Assembly (NCBI RefSeq): GCF_014695715.1
Contig: NZ_JACJOT010000013.1
Coordinates: 62,001-126,000, forward strand
Length of the DNA: 64,000 nt
Source of the DNA: Microcoleus sp. FACHB-68
GTDB lineage: Bacteria; Cyanobacteriota; Cyanobacteriia; Cyanobacteriales; Oscillatoriaceae
Direction: 5' to 3'
Made by a program: the position numbers and the translations under genes. Below are positions 3,354-18,600 of the stretch, piece after piece (the first letter of the stretch is position 1; the number at the start of each line of letters is the position of its first letter). Under the pieces are notes generated by a model. The model had not been told where the DNA came from. It was given only the letters and a program-made list of their open reading frames with translations, and did no database searches.

Positions 3354-3587
3354 AGACCTTAAAACCATTTTGTATTGAAGGTGCAGGGTCGCGCTTGAGA
3401 AGGAAAGATTGACAAAGAGAGATTGGGAGAATTTATCACTTTTTCATAAAAAATTGCAGCGAAACGCTAAGCGCCAAAGAACTGTTACTAGGAATGTAAG
3501 AAGAAATCAGCAATGGCATAGGATGATAGAGTGCAACGGCCTGCGGCGCAAGCTTGGCGGCTTAAATTGATCGGGCAGAGGACTAAC

Positions 3588-4874
3588 GTGAAGGTTTTGA
3601 TTGTTGGCAATGGGGGGCGTGAACACGCTATCGCTTGGAAGCTACTGCAAGGATCGCAAGTTCAGCAGGTGGTTTGTGTTCCGGGAAATGGGGGCACGGC
3701 GACGATGGATCGCTGTGTGAATTTGCCCCTGACGGTTGATGATTTTGAGGGAATTAAACGCGCTGCTTTGGAACATGAGGTTTCTCTAGTGGTGATTGGC
3801 CCAGAGCTGCCCTTGGCAATGGGAATTACGGACTATCTGCAGCAGCAGAATTTAACGGTGTTTGGCCCCACTCAAGCCGGCGCTCAGATTGAGGCGAGCA
3901 AATCTTGGGCGAAGAGTTTGATGCTGGAAGCTGGAATTTCTACAGCACAGTCGGCGGTGTTTACGGATGAGGAAACCGAGGCGGCTTTTGCTTATGTCGC
4001 TGAGCGAGGAGCACCAATTGTGGTGAAGGCAGATGGACTGGCTGCCGGCAAGGGGGTGACGGTTGCGGCGACGGTTGAGGAGGCTCAGGCGGCAATAGAG
4101 CAGTCATTTAGCGGTCAGTTTGGGCTAGCCGGCGAATGTTTGGTGATTGAAGAATTTTTGGCGGGACAAGAGGTTTCAGTTTTGGCGCTGACAGATGGCA
4201 AAACTGTGATTCCTTTGCTGCCGGCTCAAGATCACAAAGCGGTTGGCGAGGGCGATACAGGGCCAAATACGGGCGGCATGGGAGCCTATGCACCGGCACC
4301 TCTAGTGACGCCAGCGTTAATGGAGCAAATTCAGCAGCAAGTTTTGCAGCCGGCACTCGCAACGCTGCAAGCACGGGGAATTGACTACCGGGGCGTTTTG
4401 TATGCCGGCTTGATGATTACAAATACGGGCCACATCAAAGTGCTGGAATTTAACTGCCGGTTTGGTGATCCGGAAACCCAAGCAATTTTGCCGCTGCTAG
4501 AGACGCCTCTGGAAGATTTGATGGTGGCGTGTGCGAAGCAGCAACTTGATCAGGTGCCGGTGCGCTGGAAACCGGGGGCATCTGCCTGTGTGGTGATGGC
4601 GGCAGGCGGTTATCCCGGCAATTATCAAAAAGGTGACTTAATCACCGGCATTGATGCCGCGCAAGCCCAAGGCGCGACTGTTTTCCATGCCGGCACCCGA
4701 CTCAACAACAATGAAGTGCAAACAGATGGCGGGCGGGTTTTGAACGTCACTGCTACGGGCGAAACCTTTGACGATGCCTTTGCCCGTGCTTACGCGGCTG
4801 TGGAGTGCGTTCAATTTGAAGGCCGGTACTACCGCCGTGATATCGGCTATCGAGTCAGAGAGCACAAGGGCTAG
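3588..4874 (+). CDS. purD: Phosphoribosylamine--glycine ligase (GARS)
   Basis: Catalyses the second step of de novo purine synthesis, the ATP-dependent joining of glycine to phosphoribosylamine. I start it at GTG 3588, giving MKVLIVGNGGREHAIAWK, the canonical GARS N-terminus. The frame is open upstream to 3531, but those residues do not belong to the family. ATP-grasp features follow in order: GPTQAGAQIEASKSWAK, VVKADGLAAGKGV, GPNTGGMGAYAPAP, and the metal-binding region LEFNCRFGDPETQ. At 428 residues it has full family length with no damage visible. It stands alone, and the tandem-repeat array begins 45 bases after its stop. Confidence 0.97.
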   Translation: MKVLIVGNGGREHAIAWKLLQGSQVQQVVCVPGNGGTATMDRCVNLPLTVDDFEGIKRAALEHEVSLVVIGPELPLAMGITDYLQQQNLTVFGPTQAGAQIEASKSWAKSLMLEAGISTAQSAVFTDEETEAAFAYVAERGAPIVVKADGLAAGKGVTVAATVEEAQAAIEQSFSGQFGLAGECLVIEEFLAGQEVSVLALTDGKTVIPLLPAQDHKAVGEGDTGPNTGGMGAYAPAPLVTPALMEQIQQQVLQPALATLQARGIDYRGVLYAGLMITNTGHIKVLEFNCRFGDPETQAILPLLETPLEDLMVACAKQQLDQVPVRWKPGASACVVMAAGGYPGNYQKGDLITGIDAAQAQGATVFHAGTRLNNNEVQTDGGRVLNVTATGETFDDAFARAYAAVECVQFEGRYYRRDIGYRVREHKG

Positions 4875-4919
4875 GGAAGAGGGGAAGAAATGCAGAGAAT
4901 TCCTCATCTGCCCCCAGAT

Positions 4920-5026
4920 TGTAAAGTTTTATTAAGCAACTGAGGGGTTAGACCCCCCAAGTGCTAAATTGAATTCATGTAGATGCACCCTGATGGACGC
5001 GCCCAGTTTTGGGCGTTTTTTATTTT
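4920..5026 (+). ncRNA. Putative small RNA, array copy 1
   Basis: Seen: a mini-hairpin GGGGTTAGACCCC about 25 bases into the unit, an apparently unpaired core AGATGCACCCTGATGGA, then a hairpin with a U-tract ending near 5026. The U-tract fixes the strand as plus. The 5' end is unknown, and I see no convincing -35/-10 pair. The transcript would be roughly 60-105 nt. Inference: the C-rich core (CACCCU) could pair with AGGGUG-like ribosome-binding sites. I cannot match it to a named cyanobacterial RNA family. A read-through product of purD processed at the repeats is the alternative. Confidence 0.55.
5000..5026 (+). terminator. Intrinsic terminator of array copy 1
   Basis: Stem CGCCCA/TGGGCG (5000-5005 with 5010-5015), 4-base loop GTTT, then TTTTTTATTTT. 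Confidence 0.85.
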
Positions 5027-5075
5027 CGGCGTTTTTTACACCCAATCCAGCCGGCACCCAAATTTCCCGCTTATT

Positions 5076-5182
5076 TGTAAAGTTTTATTAAGCAACTGAG
5101 GGGTTAGACCCCCCAAGTGCTAAATTGAATTCATGTAGATGCACCCTGATGGACGCGCCCAGTTTTGGGCGTTTTTTATTTT
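5076..5182 (+). ncRNA. Putative small RNA, array copy 2
   Basis: Identical to copy 1 over the whole 156-base unit, including hairpins, core and terminator. About 50 bases separate its start from the terminator of copy 1. If each unit carries its own promoter, that promoter must lie in this interval (TTTTACACCCAATCCAG to GTAAAGTTTTATT), where I see no strong consensus element. Confidence 0.55.
5156..5182 (+). terminator. Intrinsic terminator of array copy 2
   Basis: Same stem, loop and T-tract as copy 1, exactly 156 bases downstream. Confidence 0.85.
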
Positions 5183-5231
5183 CGGCGTTTTTTACACCCA
5201 ATCCAGCCGGCACCCAAATTTCCCGCTTATT

Positions 5232-5338
5232 TGTAAAGTTTTATTAAGCAACTGAGGGGTTAGACCCCCCAAGTGCTAAATTGAATTCATGTAGATGCAC
5301 CCTGATGGACGCGCCCAGTTTTGGGCGTTTTTTATTTT
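5232..5338 (+). ncRNA. Putative small RNA, array copy 3
   Basis: Identical to copies 1 and 2 up to base 5346, just after its terminator, where the repeat breaks off. The retained identity therefore covers the full presumed RNA, and the loss begins only in the spacer. That pattern is consistent with the RNA being the functional part. Confidence 0.55.
5312..5338 (+). terminator. Intrinsic terminator of array copy 3
   Basis: Stem CGCCCA/TGGGCG starting at 5312, loop GTTT, T-rich tail. Confidence 0.85.
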
Positions 5339-5408
5339 CGGCGTTTGGTTTGGCTGAGACGAACCTTTGCCGGCTTGTAATTTACGAAGATTTCATAATA
5401 ACGTAAAC

Positions 5409-5507
5409 TTTTGACAAAGCCTGCTGGGTTACACCCCTGAGGGGTTAGACTTAAAACATAGATGCACCCTGATGGATACGCCCAGTTGTTGGGCGTTTTT
5501 TGTTTTT
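5409..5507 (+). ncRNA. Putative small RNA, diverged array copy 4
   Basis: Shares CTGAGGGGTTAGAC and the 18-base core TAGATGCACCCTGATGGA with the other copies, while the linking bases differ freely. The GGGG block pairs with an upstream CCCC (ACCCCTGAGGGGT) instead of the downstream CCCC used in copies 1-3, so a hairpin is kept by a different partner. The terminator stem is also kept with an altered loop. A TTGACA hexamer at about 5412 could be a -35 element, but no good -10 follows at the right distance. Selective conservation of core plus structure argues for a functional RNA. Confidence 0.5.
5479..5507 (+). terminator. Intrinsic terminator of array copy 4
   Basis: Stem CGCCCA/TGGGCG (5479-5484 with 5490-5495), loop GTTGT, then TTTTTTGTTTTT. 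The stem matches the other copies while the loop differs. Confidence 0.8.
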
Positions 5508-5680
5508 CGGCACACCCAATCGAACGATGAAGGAAGGGAAGAGATCGCTCACTAAGCGCTGCCGGCAGAATGCAAAACTCGCGCTTCCCTTCAGTTACAA
5601 GCCGGCGCAGCCTTGTGCAAATTGGCTCATTGGAATCGTTGAGCTACACAGATCAGGCAAAGGTAAGGTTGAGGGCAATC

Positions 5681-6544
5681 TTAAGCGTTATCGGAGTAGC
5701 GAGTTAACCACTGCTGGTACGTTGGCAGAAGTTCTGCATCTTCCATCACAATTTCTATCCGCACTTTCGCGCATCCGTGATTAGGCCGGTCGGCAATCGC
5801 TTTTAAAATTTTACTGGCAACTTCTGGAGAATTAAATTCACCTTTGATAACGGGTTGAGTATCAGAAACCGCGCCGTCAAGCAACTCGATGCCGGTCACT
5901 TCTCCTTGCCCTAAATCAATTTCAGCCAGTTGTTTGTGTTCTGGCCCAACTTGTTCAATAATAAGTTTTTCGCGTCGAACTGGAACTTCAACTATCCGAG
6001 TTTCAACTTCTTTGCGAACAATAACTTCGCCAATTTTTTGTTTGCTGCGGTCAATAACCAGCCGCTCTTCTAGCAAGCGAATTTCGTGTTCTGCCACGAC
6101 TTCTGGCAAACCTTCAGACCCATGCATTAAATGTTCGTTTGTGCTTTGAGTATTCATCTGAAGTGGGGTTGCTTCAGATGATGCCGGTGGCTGGTCAATG
6201 GGTCGAGGTGGAAGGTCTGAAGGAGTGATCTCTGATGTCTGGAGCGATCTATATTCAGGTAGTTGCTCAATTTGAGCGGGAGTAAGGTTTATAAAGACTG
6301 ATTTATTCGCGTAATCAATATATTGGATGAGCTTGCTATTTAACAGAAACAAGCGGGAACTTTGCTGAGTCGTCAGATCAGCGACCACTAAATTAATTTG
6401 GCCGCTGGGAGCGAGATTAACATTTTTTATTTGACCCACCAATAGTCCTTGATTGTCTCTTACCGCTAAATTTGTTAACTGAATTGTCAGTTTTTCTACC
6501 ATACTCTTAAGCCGAGCATTGGTTTCGGGTGCTTGATTTACCAT
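5681..6544 (-). CDS. PRC-barrel-like / DUF2382 (YsnF/AvaK-type) protein, paralogue 1
   Basis: 287 residues, start ATG 6544 preceded by AAGGAAACCGGA. The N-terminal half resembles a PRC-barrel (LAVRDNQGLLVGQIKNVNL, then repeated beta-strand phrases). The C-terminal half is DUF2382: LLEERLVIDRSKQKIGEVIVRKEVETRIVEVPV. DUF2382 is known from the YsnF stress protein and the akinete marker AvaK; its biochemical role is unknown. This copy is the most diverged of the three paralogues in a row on this strand. It lacks the MALVKLEDFYPNYR N-terminus of the other two and ends close to the small-RNA array on the opposite strand. A plus-strand frame overlapping its 3' end (from 5500) looks spurious. Confidence 0.82.
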   Translation of the reverse strand: MVNQAPETNARLKSMVEKLTIQLTNLAVRDNQGLLVGQIKNVNLAPSGQINLVVADLTTQQSSRLFLLNSKLIQYIDYANKSVFINLTPAQIEQLPEYRSLQTSEITPSDLPPRPIDQPPASSEATPLQMNTQSTNEHLMHGSEGLPEVVAEHEIRLLEERLVIDRSKQKIGEVIVRKEVETRIVEVPVRREKLIIEQVGPEHKQLAEIDLGQGEVTGIELLDGAVSDTQPVIKGEFNSPEVASKILKAIADRPNHGCAKVRIEIVMEDAELLPTYQQWLTRYSDNA

Positions 6545-6670
6545 TTTTCCGGTTTCCTTATTTTTTATTGAAAAGCACAGGCAGAGCTAAAAATGCGCTC
6601 CGCCTGCACGGTTGTTAATTCCTGAGTTCAGCTAAAGAACTGCCTTACCGAATGTGTGGTTAAGGGCTAT

Positions 6671-7576
6671 TTAAATGCTACGATTGCCGGAATCTTCAGG
6701 GCCTTTGTTTACAATCGTACGGCCTTCCGCTTGAACATCTAACTCTTCGCGGCGCAAGGTTTCTTCTGCATCAACGGTTTCGCGCTCGATTTCTTTACGC
6801 ACACCGACTTCTTCGCGCACAAAGGCTTCTTTGTGGATGTCTGGTATTTCTTCGTAAACTTCCATGTGTGCCACTTCTCCGGCTTGGAAGTTTGCATCAC
6901 CCGGAGCAACAGGAGTGCTACTTGTCGGCGTTGTGCGCTCAATCACTACACGCTCTCTTTCGATGGGCACAGAAGCGCGTGCTGTTTCAGTTTCAACGCG
7001 CTTACCAACTGTAACTTCACCTGTTTTTTGACGAGTTTTGTTGGCAATTAGGCGTTCTTCGTACAGTCTTAAGGTTGCATGATCGCGCTCGTTCATATTG
7101 TAGAGAGCCGGTTCACGATCATAGGTGTAGGTGTCACGATCATTGGTGTTGGCAGTCGGTTGAACGGCAGTCGCACCGGCAGTCGCACCGGCAGTCGCAC
7201 CGGCAGTTGTGGCGGGCGCGCGATAAACGTCTCTGACTTGCTCTTCGTGATCGTAGTCAATCGGTTGTAGTTCGTCGTAGGCAGGTAGTCTTTCTGCTTG
7301 TTCTTTGTTCAGCAGATTGGTGGCGTAAACGCGCCGTGCATCATAATCGATGCGGCAAGAACCGATAGGCAGTAACACCTTCTTGCCAAACACCCAGAAA
7401 CCTGTGTCTAGGACTAAATAGCGGAAGCGTCCTGACTCATCCACTAATGCATCATGGATCGTGCCAATCTTTTCTTCTGATGTGCCGGCGTAGACATCTA
7501 AGCCTTTAATATCATCGCCGCCAAAAATCTCGTCTCTGTAATTGGGGTAAAAATCTTCTAATTTTACAAGAGCCAT
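6671..7576 (-). CDS. PRC-barrel / DUF2382 AvaK-like protein, paralogue 2
   Basis: Start ATG 7576 gives MALVKLEDFYPNYRDEIFGG, matching the neighbouring paralogue, with an SD (GGGAAGGA) about ten bases upstream. An upstream frame to 7612 is not shared. Order: PRC-barrel (residues about 10-95, IGTIHDALVDESGRFRYLVLDTG), a low-complexity Ala/Gly/Thr linker made by a 12-base repeat, then DUF2382 (LRLYEERLIANKTRQKTGEVTVGKRVET, later ERERVVIERTTP). The C-terminus is strongly acidic and basic. Homologues include AvaK of akinetes and proteins linked to general stress, so a stress or resting-state role is possible but inferred. 301 residues. Confidence 0.85.
   Translation of the reverse strand: MALVKLEDFYPNYRDEIFGGDDIKGLDVYAGTSEEKIGTIHDALVDESGRFRYLVLDTGFWVFGKKVLLPIGSCRIDYDARRVYATNLLNKEQAERLPAYDELQPIDYDHEEQVRDVYRAPATTAGATAGATAGATAVQPTANTNDRDTYTYDREPALYNMNERDHATLRLYEERLIANKTRQKTGEVTVGKRVETETARASVPIERERVVIERTTPTSSTPVAPGDANFQAGEVAHMEVYEEIPDIHKEAFVREEVGVRKEIERETVDAEETLRREELDVQAEGRTIVNKGPEDSGNRSI
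7166..7207. repeat. 12-bp minisatellite inside a DUF2382 gene
   Basis: Three perfect copies of GGCAGTCGCACC (7166-7201), then the first six bases of a fourth. The repeat is in frame and encodes a four-residue Ala-Gly-Ala-Thr unit in the linker between the PRC and DUF2382 domains. Neither paralogue has it. Confidence 0.9.
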
Positions 7577-7963
7577 AACTTTTTTTTCCTTCCCTGTATC
7601 TACATATACCATCCTAGGAAACTATTAGGGATTAGTTATCTCCCTCAGGTAAGAAAGGTTAAAATTACTAATTGGGAGTTATCTTCCTAAAGTAGCAGGA
7701 TAAATTATTAAGAAATATAAATCACGAGTCTAAAAATTTTTAATAGATTTTAATAGAAAAATGGCCCTTCAATTAACTGTAGCGCCGCAGTATTTTATAA
7801 ACAAATCAGGTTATAATGGTTAATCTCTACGCTAGATGCTTTACATAATCATGAAAGTTATGTATCTCAGGTTACAAAAAGAGATGGCTATTTTTAGTAT
7901 TTAAATTTTTGATTCAGTCAGCAGATATCATTGATTGAAAACCTAGCTTACTACATGGAAGTA
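7577..7963. other. Intergenic spacer between paralogues 2 and 3
   Basis: 387 bases, AT-rich, with a short inverted repeat near 7845-7865 (CATAA...TTATG). No ORF longer than about 17 codons, no RNA signature and no clear promoter seen. It presumably holds the promoter of the 6671-7576 gene. Confidence 0.6.
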
Positions 7964-8812
7964 TTAAAATGCTTTGGGGTTTTCTTCGCCGGCAGCCAAG
8001 CTTTCAGTGTTCACTTCTAACTCTTCTCGCCTTAAGGTTGCTGTTGCCTCTACTGTGTGGCGCTCAACTTCTTTTTTAATCGTGACTTGTTCACGCACAA
8101 AGAATTCTTTGTGAATATCAGCGGTTTCTTCATAAATTTTGATGCGGAGAACTTCCCCGGTGCGGAAGGCAATTTCATTAGCCGGCATCACGCAACTGAT
8201 ATCTGTAGGTGTTGTTCTTTCAATCACTATTCGCTCTTTTTCAACCGGCACTGAAACTTCAACAGTTTTGGCTTTTACGCGCTTGGCAATAACAATCTCC
8301 CCTGTCTGATGGCAAAATTTATTAGCAATTAGGCGTTCTTCGTAGAGGTGAAGCGTTTGATTTTCCGGTTGATTGACTTTAGAGATCGGCAGGTTTACTT
8401 TTTTAGGAGGAAGGGTGGATTGATTGCCTTCAAATTTGGGCGAATTCTCTGGTGGGAGCGTAACTTGATTTGGAGAATCTTCATAATTGTAATCAACGGT
8501 GATACCATCAGCATACTCTGGTAATTCTTCTATGTGCTTTTTGTTAAGAATACCTAGGGCATCAACGCGTCGTGTGCGATTGTCGAGCCGGCAGCAACCA
8601 ACGGGTATCAAAACTTTTTTCTCAATGCCCCAATTGCTTGTATCAATTACCAAATAGCGGAATCGGCCTGTTAGATCGACGACATCATCGCAAACGGTGC
8701 CGATTTTTTCATCCGTCTGCCCTGCATACACATCAAACGCTTGAATGTCTTTGCCGCCTAAAACTTTTTGGCGATAGTTGGGATAAAAGTCTTCCAGTTT
8801 GACCAGAGCCAT
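7964..8812 (-). CDS. PRC-barrel / DUF2382 AvaK-like protein, paralogue 3
   Basis: 282 residues starting MALVKLEDFYPNYRQKVLGG at ATG 8812, with GGGGAT upstream. The PRC-barrel comes first (IGTVCDDVVDLTGRFRYLVIDTS), then a linker of about 40 residues, then DUF2382 (LHLYEERLIANKFCHQTGEIVIAKRV, EKERIVIERTTPTD). It is collinear with paralogue 2 except for the linker, so the pair is a tandem duplication old enough to have diverged substantially. It is transcribed divergently from the KDPG aldolase gene with about 135 bases between starts. No enzyme activity is known for the family. Confidence 0.86.
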   Translation of the reverse strand: MALVKLEDFYPNYRQKVLGGKDIQAFDVYAGQTDEKIGTVCDDVVDLTGRFRYLVIDTSNWGIEKKVLIPVGCCRLDNRTRRVDALGILNKKHIEELPEYADGITVDYNYEDSPNQVTLPPENSPKFEGNQSTLPPKKVNLPISKVNQPENQTLHLYEERLIANKFCHQTGEIVIAKRVKAKTVEVSVPVEKERIVIERTTPTDISCVMPANEIAFRTGEVLRIKIYEETADIHKEFFVREQVTIKKEVERHTVEATATLRREELEVNTESLAAGEENPKAF

Positions 8813-17553: not shown

Positions 17554-18600
17554 TTAGCGCCCAAACTGTTGTAAAATAATTTTTTTTGAATTTTGGGCTT
17601 TTTGAAAGTTGGGATTAATTTGCAGCGCCTTCTCTATAGACTCAAGGGCTTCTTTATTTCGTCCCTGCAAATATAGCGCAGCTCCTCTGTTATTCCACGC
17701 ATCAGCCAAGTCAGGCTTAAATTGAATGGCCTTGTCATAAGAAGCAACCGCATCATCGTAGCGTTTCAACTCATCTAGCGCAAAGCCTCGGTTATTCCAA
17801 GCCTCAGCATAATCAGGCTTAATTTTAATTGCCTTATCATAAGAAGCAACCGCATCATCGTAGCGTTTCAACTCATCTAGCACAAAGCCTCGGTTATACC
17901 AAGCCTCAGCCAAGTCAGGCTTAATTTTAATTGCCTTATCATAAGAAGTAACCGCTTCTTCGTAGCGTTTCAATTCACTTAGCGTAATGCCTCGATTATG
18001 CCAAGCATCAGGATCATTTGGCTTAAATTGAATGGCCTTGTCATAAGAAGCAACCGCTTCTTCATAGCGTTTTAAGTACCTTAAGGCAATGCCTTGATTA
18101 TACCAAGCATCAGCAAAGTTAGGCTTAAATTGAATGGCCTTATCATAAGAAGCAACCGCTTCTTCGTAGTCTTTTAACTCATCTAGCGCAATGCCTCGAT
18201 TATGCCAAGCATCAGGATCATTTGGATTAAATTGAATGGCCTTATCATAAGAAGCAACTGCTTCTTCGTAGCGTTTCAAGTACCTTAGCGCAATACCTCG
18301 GTTATTCCAAGCATCAGGATCATTTGGCTTAAATTGAATTGTCTTGTCATAAGAAGCAACTGCTTCTTCGTAGCGTTTTAACTTACTTAGCGCATTACCT
18401 CGATTATACCAAACAGCAGCCAAGTCAGGCTTAATTTGAATGGCCTTATCATAAGAGGCAACCGCATCATCGTAGCGTTTTAACCTATCTAATGTAATGC
18501 CTCGGTTATTCCAACCTTCAGCCAAGTCAGACTTAAATTGAATTGCCTTGACAGATAAAATGAAAAGGATGCAGATAAGGAGCCAATATCGAGATTTCAT
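17554..18600 (-). CDS. TPR-repeat protein with N-terminal signal/anchor
   Basis: 348 residues. Residues about 5-20 are hydrophobic (WLLICILFILSV), so the protein is exported or anchored. The rest is an unbroken run of about nine to ten 34-residue tetratricopeptide repeats of the type AWNNRGIAL-LKRYEEAVASYDKAIQFKPN. Each repeat is 102 bases, and several are nearly identical in DNA, which points to recent unit duplication or gene conversion. The last repeat (LYLQGRNKEALESIEKALQINPN) is the most diverged. TPR solenoids bind protein partners, and nothing here identifies the partner. It stands alone. Confidence 0.92.
   Translation of the reverse strand: MKSRYWLLICILFILSVKAIQFKSDLAEGWNNRGITLDRLKRYDDAVASYDKAIQIKPDLAAVWYNRGNALSKLKRYEEAVASYDKTIQFKPNDPDAWNNRGIALRYLKRYEEAVASYDKAIQFNPNDPDAWHNRGIALDELKDYEEAVASYDKAIQFKPNFADAWYNQGIALRYLKRYEEAVASYDKAIQFKPNDPDAWHNRGITLSELKRYEEAVTSYDKAIKIKPDLAEAWYNRGFVLDELKRYDDAVASYDKAIKIKPDYAEAWNNRGFALDELKRYDDAVASYDKAIQFKPDLADAWNNRGAALYLQGRNKEALESIEKALQINPNFQKAQNSKKIILQQFGR

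Follow-up and report, generated by a model that had tools for sequence, protein, structure and literature searches.

What kind of gene is multiplied in the tandem array that follows purD in Microcoleus sp. FACHB-68, and what controls it? The array lies in the window, by which the whole analysed stretch of 64,000 nucleotides is meant. A sequence-only reading had described terminator-ended small-RNA genes, multiplied behind purD in a single orientation and sharing a constant core, and this description is upheld. Exact comparison and TRF, which reports a 156-base period with 2.7 copies and 100% matches over 4919–5346, also agree with its division into tandem units, the third of which is identical through the terminator while the fourth is diverged. 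The array and its upstream gene are arranged as follows:

3531–4874, + strand: purD (phosphoribosylamine-glycine ligase), the gene upstream of the array (TIGR00877, 539 bits, cut-off 288)
4919–5074, + strand: unit 1, 156 bases, identical to 5075–5230
5075–5230, + strand: unit 2, 156 bases, identical to unit 1
5231–5346, + strand: unit 3, identical to 4919–5034 through the terminator and diverging after it
about 5375–5507, + strand: unit 4, diverged, with core and terminator kept in the alignment

The conserved 5′ core UAGAUGCACCCUGAU is followed by an intrinsic terminator in all four copies, and the diverged copy 4 retains TAGATGCACCCTGATGGA together with the GCCCAGTTGTTGGGC terminator. The window contains the 17-base core at exactly four places, each on the + strand, and no further core-like site with up to three mismatches (shuffle mean 0.12). 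A DNA search of plasmids gave no match. Beyond the array, positions 5681–8812 hold three adjacent minus-strand genes, two with a DUF2382 domain (Pfam), one of these also with a PRC-barrel, while the third (7964–8812) resembles its DUF2382 neighbours by appearance. A separate 102-base tandem repeat at 17684–18549 (8.5 copies, 83%) probably encodes 34-residue TPR units of a protein.

At the Rfam gathering threshold there is no match in the window. In a permissive Rfam scan of 4850–5600, NsiR1 (RF02399) ranks first on all four copies, with scores of 32, 32, 32 and 24.8 bits, all below the gathering cut-off of 39; SorX and several other matches of the same scan were treated as chance. The predicted RNA genes are:

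4977–5022, + strand: predicted NsiR1-type small RNA, copy 1 (RF02399 32 bits, E 2.4e-4; start placed from the –10 box)
5133–5178, + strand: predicted NsiR1-type small RNA, copy 2 (RF02399 32 bits)
5289–5334, + strand: predicted NsiR1-type small RNA, copy 3 (RF02399 32 bits)
5456–5502, + strand: predicted NsiR1-type small RNA, copy 4 (RF02399 24.8 bits, E 0.015)

The RF02399 match spans the NsiR1 5′ core nearly letter for letter. With the start set by the –10 box, the predicted RNA (4977–5022, the span of the Rfam match) is about 46 nt long, shorter than the 60–105 nt proposed earlier.

The kinship with NsiR1 is settled by copies elsewhere in the same genome, where the exact core TAGATGCACCCTGAT occurs 16 times: besides the four window copies, contig C18 has eight, C6 three and C17 one. 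Those on C6 precede, in opposite orientation, the gene of an 875-residue HetF-like protein, which gives an end-to-end match to the cell division protein HetF (942.5 bits; curated cut-off 1200). Divergent NsiR1 upstream of hetF is the known arrangement in Nostoc (available text of PMC9045159). Two of the three C6 copies exceed the Rfam cut-off with 58.5 and 54.6 bits. The sequence-only reading had claimed no homology to NsiR1 and had proposed an undescribed system, and neither position holds, since the core is the 5′ region of NsiR1 and all four copies match RF02399; judged by sequence, the array is a set of four NsiR1 relatives and not an undescribed RNA. The single C17 copy sits between gatB and argJ and is preceded by the element GAGGGGTTTGACCCCTC. 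On C18 (423468–424193; L009:7100–8250), eight NsiR1 copies are spaced about 101 bases apart, seven of them with an exact upstream TCCGGA, and this array adjoins GNAT and polyketide-cyclase-like genes, away from hetF.

In 36 of 60 relatives RF02399 has matches above the cut-off, so NsiR1 is within Rfam's reach well beyond the source genome; the practical point is that the window copies escape its gathering cut-off. Homologues with a random core and only the terminator conserved had been named as evidence against the array, and the reverse was found, the core being constant and the terminator letters varying. This constancy is partly by construction, as most homologues were retrieved via the exact core; near-identical cores are likewise returned by a search with RF02399, for which an exact core is no requirement, although the model itself rewards the core.

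Upstream of each predicted RNA a promoter can be predicted from the sequence:

4942–4958, no strand: HetR-operator-like palindrome of copy 1, GAGGGGTTAGACCCCCC, 16/17 to the reverse complement of the hetP site
5098–5114, no strand: HetR-operator-like palindrome of copy 2, GAGGGGTTAGACCCCCC, 16/17
5254–5270, no strand: HetR-operator-like palindrome of copy 3, GAGGGGTTAGACCCCCC, 16/17
5423–5439, no strand: weaker HetR-site-like sequence of copy 4, GCTGGGTTACACCCCTG, 13/17, with GGG-N5-CCC intact
4965–4970, 5121–5126 and 5277–5282, + strand: –10-like box TAAATT of copies 1–3
5446–5451, + strand: –10-like box TAGACT of copy 4

The "mini-hairpin", which had been regarded as part of the RNA, precedes the predicted –10 box and the start placed from it, and is probably promoter DNA rather than RNA. 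The palindrome was likewise dropped as a second RNA stem, lying upstream of the –10-like box and matching the hetP operator. That operator has been published as GAGGGGTCTAACCCCTC (available text of PMC4192349), and within the 64 kb a match to it of at least 15/17 occurs only at the three GAGGGGTTAGACCCCCC places. GGG-N5-CCC precedes the core in all four window copies, and DIF1 (TCCGGA) occurs at the –35 position in none of them. The hetF-side and C18 copies do carry TCCGGA 35–38 bases before the core (exact in 9 of 11, with one mismatch in 2 of 11), and the window palindrome occupies the place where these copies have DIF1. Each tandem copy has its own predicted promoter.

The distribution of the two elements was followed in 120 exact-core regions from relatives, to which the window and three other loci of the source genome were added. 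These comprise 215 cores from 37 genomes, 209 of them distinct and 208 with a complete 60-base upstream sequence; the class counts do not include 15 regions (the four from G054, five from G048, three from G057 and one each from G034, G038 and G059), and one additional G057 region was kept outside them. GGG-N5-CCC is located 33–43 bases upstream of the core in 70 of the 208 (shuffled expectation 0.35), and exact DIF1 35–41 bases upstream in 69 (shuffled expectation 0.56). Both elements occur together in none of the 208, and neither in 69; counted over all 215 cores, 44 more have a one-mismatch DIF1 and 26 fall in neither class. This 70/69/0 split speaks against the idea that DIF1 belongs to every NsiR1 promoter and that the window copies are decayed. 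Agreement with the hetP site also extends to neighbouring bases that the pattern leaves free, as seen at inner and outer positions of 56 distinct HetR-type sites (T in 53, A in 53, C in 54 and C in 47). Of 201 distinct HetR-site-class promoters, 197 have a TANNNT box between 22 and 8 bases ahead of the core, compared with an average of 101 in shuffles; the DIF1 class shows no excess of it (11/67, shuffle mean 16.8). The alignment of the mixed RNA bodies is too poor for pair counts, and terminators were therefore counted against shuffles: of 202 distinct HetR-site-class bodies, 187 have a terminator-like stem and a T-run after the core (3.0 on average in shuffles), and so do 59 of the 69 bodies of the DIF1 class (0.2 on average in shuffles).

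With one genome per species, the pattern of GGGTNNNACCC, a gap and the core was found in at least 114 stretches. Among the matches listed, Dolichospermum, Anabaena, Calothrix, Rivularia, Scytonema and Richelia are heterocyst formers by name. Microcoleus, Oscillatoria sp. PCC 10802, Symploca, Spirulina, Okeania, Moorena and Tychonema, also among the matches listed, are non-heterocystous filaments. Two further types of copy were noticed. In several genomes the core of RF02399 matches takes the variant form TAGATGCACCCTGGT (L281–L288, L290 and L294–L296); these matches, most of them with DIF1 or near-DIF1 upstream, form a further paralogue type. Some NsiR1 copies of G003, G006 and G007 (L053, L054, L068, L070 and L072) lack both DIF1 and GGG-N5-CCC and have a recurring GTGTAGGCAGACACCCC-like element at the operator place, perhaps an altered operator.

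The source genome contains one hetR. Its product aligns over 299 residues with the structure-known HetR proteins of Anabaena and Fischerella and keeps R62, H69, E71, K73, R74 and K76, which are named as DNA-contact residues in the available text of PMC4649674. Of 60 genomes, 38 contain the exact core, comprising all 34 that have hetR and 4 of the 26 that lack it. The HetR-site class is found in 31 of 33 hetR-bearing genomes with fetched loci (the exceptions are G041 and G057; G054 is outside this sample) and in one of the four core-bearing genomes that lack hetR, G015. A larger survey applied a strict HetR-site pattern to 389 genomes of the order that are at least 90% complete. The strict class is present in 160 of these, hetR in 265 and both in 158, so that hetR accompanies 158 of 160 HetR-site-class genomes vs 107 of the 229 others (Fisher p = 1.5e-33, with relatedness ignored); the reversed pattern, taken as a control, gave 0 in every row listed.

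The strict pattern is missing from 107 of the 265 genomes with hetR. Fifty of the 85 such genomes in family f33 were searched, and 45 of them keep the gatB-type RNA body; in 19 copies from twelve of these loci, GGG-N5-CCC is kept in 9 and broken in 10. The strict pattern therefore undercounts the class, and the operator is truly weaker in part of f33. A search of 80 of the 124 hetR-less genomes found the core in 22. Ten of these belong to f18 and three to f8, each with a single copy that keeps core and terminator; GGG-N5-CCC is present in none of these 13 copies, 12 of which adjoin gatB or argJ. Another seven are f31 genomes, whose copies have DIF1-like motifs, mostly one mismatch off, and the remaining two are G015 and G142. 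Of the gatB-argJ loci, 24 of 27 from genomes with hetR have the operator vs 1 of 13 from genomes without it (p = 9.5e-7, a contrast that comprises few independent events), and each of the three misses among the former is one base away from GGG-N5-CCC. For Nostoc PCC 7120, the available part of the HetR ChIP table (PMC4192349) contains no recognisable gatB or argJ locus.

The interpretation favoured here, which is considered likely, is that the array comprises four tandem NsiR1-family genes, each directly controlled by HetR, and represents a second class of NsiR1 promoter in filaments without nifH. The palindrome might instead be bound by another regulator, or HetR might repress through it, which is judged unlikely. 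The site overlies the –35 position, where a repressor could act, and G015 and G142 keep it without a hetR detectable by family or by HetR protein query; recent loss of hetR, an assembly gap or another regulator might account for these two genomes. Set against this are the 16/17 match to the hetP operator, the co-occurrence with hetR and the absence of the gatB-argJ site in the two hetR-less families f18 and f8. In addition, DIF1, which is an activating element (available text of PMC7377430), stands at a similar distance from the core.

The two classes also differ in their genomic neighbourhood. At gatB-linked loci of the HetR-site or unassigned class, the RNA gene follows gatB in the same orientation in 74 of 74 cases, at a median of 145 bases from the end of gatB. 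At 17 hetF-linked loci the RNA lies upstream on the opposite strand, with DIF1 or near-DIF1 in 16, one unassigned and none of the HetR-site class. The classes therefore occupy separate recurrent loci. These data bear on the idea that the array is an ordinary extra locus of a known small RNA with nothing special in its control. The identity of the core and the RF02399 match agree with it, tandem NsiR1 arrays are already known (PMC9045159, text as available), the family already exceeds the Rfam threshold in 36 of 60 relatives, and some copies of the HetR-site class pass Rfam, e.g. G039:C1:5344365 with 48.3 bits. Such an ordinary locus is nevertheless quite improbable, as DIF1 is missing from all four copies, with a HetR-type site in its place, and the HetR-site class has a recurrent locus of its own downstream of gatB, with the same strand in every case, and is found at none of the 17 hetF-linked loci.

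The history of the array can be traced in related genomes. In family f1, to which the source genome belongs, an NsiR1 copy is found at purD in all eight genomes (G000–G007), and the copy nearest to purD has GGG-N5-CCC in five of the eight, the site being broken in three genomes of genus g2. Two congeneric genomes have 3+1 (G001) and 1+1 (G002) copies behind purD. Within the source genome, and likewise within G001, copies 1–3 are identical over 111 bases that comprise promoter and RNA, while the identity between the two genomes is 96%, which points to homogenisation of the predicted genes. The HetR-site class has also been multiplied separately in other genomes, for example in G196, where eight copies are spaced at about 200 bases, and in G179, which has six. 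A non-genic repeat (integron-, CRISPR- or insertion-related) or an assembly artefact, which the perfect identity of copies 1–3 might bring to mind, is hardly credible given the purD arrangement shared by the two congeneric genomes and the presence of the class in 31 of 33 hetR-bearing genomes with fetched loci.

Under direct control by HetR, each copy would give rise to a trans-acting RNA of about 46 nt with an unpaired 5′ core, UAGAUGCACCCUGAUGG, directly followed by the intrinsic terminator. The –35 element would be a HetR-type operator that places each copy under HetR, which most likely acts as an activator, by analogy with hetP and hetZ, although it may also repress. This class would be distinct from the HetZ-dependent DIF1 class at hetF, and the identical copies 1–3 may provide a higher dosage. 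In Nostoc, NsiR1 lowers hetF translation, affecting the accumulation of HetR, and also targets alr3234, according to the available text of PMC9045159. The core of the window RNAs might similarly pair with the hetF leader, if the leader extends through the divergent NsiR1 copies as in Nostoc; such pairing would lower HetF and raise HetR, so that non-nitrogen-fixing filaments would possess a feed-forward loop.

The core and the hetF leader region form 20 continuous pairs, including an exact 17-base complement (–37.3 kcal/mol), and the whole RNA reaches –57.7 kcal/mol against the same region (shuffled mean –32.9, minimum –43.0), while the best duplex with only the proximal 360 bases before hetF is –14.1 kcal/mol. 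The pairing follows from the shared descent of the core and is for this reason not independent evidence. Two neighbouring targets were considered and are not proposed: the purD mRNA (–22.4 kcal/mol) and the 5′ region of the adjacent DUF2382 gene (–15.6 kcal/mol), shuffled controls having been run for the hetF leader only. A link to nitrogen fixation was also rejected for the source genome, where the best nifH match is 220.9 bits (cut-off 394); nifH exceeds the cut-off in 17 of the 60 genomes, the source genome not among them. Its array is therefore probably not involved in heterocyst formation.

A broader and more tentative proposal, which is rather doubtful in its full extent, is that filamentous cyanobacteria have a HetR–NsiR1–hetF feed-forward loop as the general output of HetR, and that this loop predates both heterocysts and nitrogen fixation and depends on neither. 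In that proposal the directly HetR-driven NsiR1 class would reside at an ancient gatB-argJ locus, the loop may tune cell division via HetF, and its strength would be raised by multiplication of the RNA gene. The findings suggest that NsiR1 is older than its role in heterocysts, and the predicted promoters suggest a direct circuit from HetR to a small RNA outside heterocyst development. The role of patX and hetR in species that lack heterocysts is called a mystery in PMC11298460, where, in the available text, the genes are identified from the deletions named there. The array offers a concrete, short and multiplied candidate target of HetR with a predicted operator, of a class that the strict pattern detects in 160 of the 389 genomes surveyed, so that the function of HetR in filaments that never form heterocysts becomes a testable question.

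The window array shares with the hetF-linked NsiR1 the 5′ core GUAGAUGCACCCUGAU, a short RNA, a terminator and a promoter for each copy (RNA and promoter being predicted here), as well as a tandem organisation in which identical central copies stand beside a diverged one. It differs in its position behind purD instead of at hetF, in the terminator sequence, in having a HetR-operator-like site and no DIF1, in scoring below the Rfam gathering threshold and in a host without nifH over the cut-off.

The comparison with promoters of the HetR regulon, such as those of hetP and hetZ, reveals the same hetP-type palindrome. For hetZ of Nodularia, a HetR site has been suggested 56–17 nt upstream of the start (available text of PMC3610870), and the window site, relative to the start set by the –10 box, falls within that range. 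Unlike hetP and hetZ, which are protein genes, the target in the window is a multicopy small RNA. An NsiR1-like RNA of 57 nt, RNA162, whose expression levels were measured, is described for Limnospira indica PCC 8005 (available text of PMC8400943), and like the window copies it is a short RNA of this kind in a non-heterocystous filament. The novelty would thus lie in the promoter, in which a HetR-type operator appears to replace DIF1, and not in the RNA itself. The HetR-site class of NsiR1 promoters appears to be new; in literature other than the main original NsiR1 papers, no description of it was found. NsiR1 splits into two control classes that use about the same promoter position, one for HetZ through DIF1 and the other, by prediction, for HetR.
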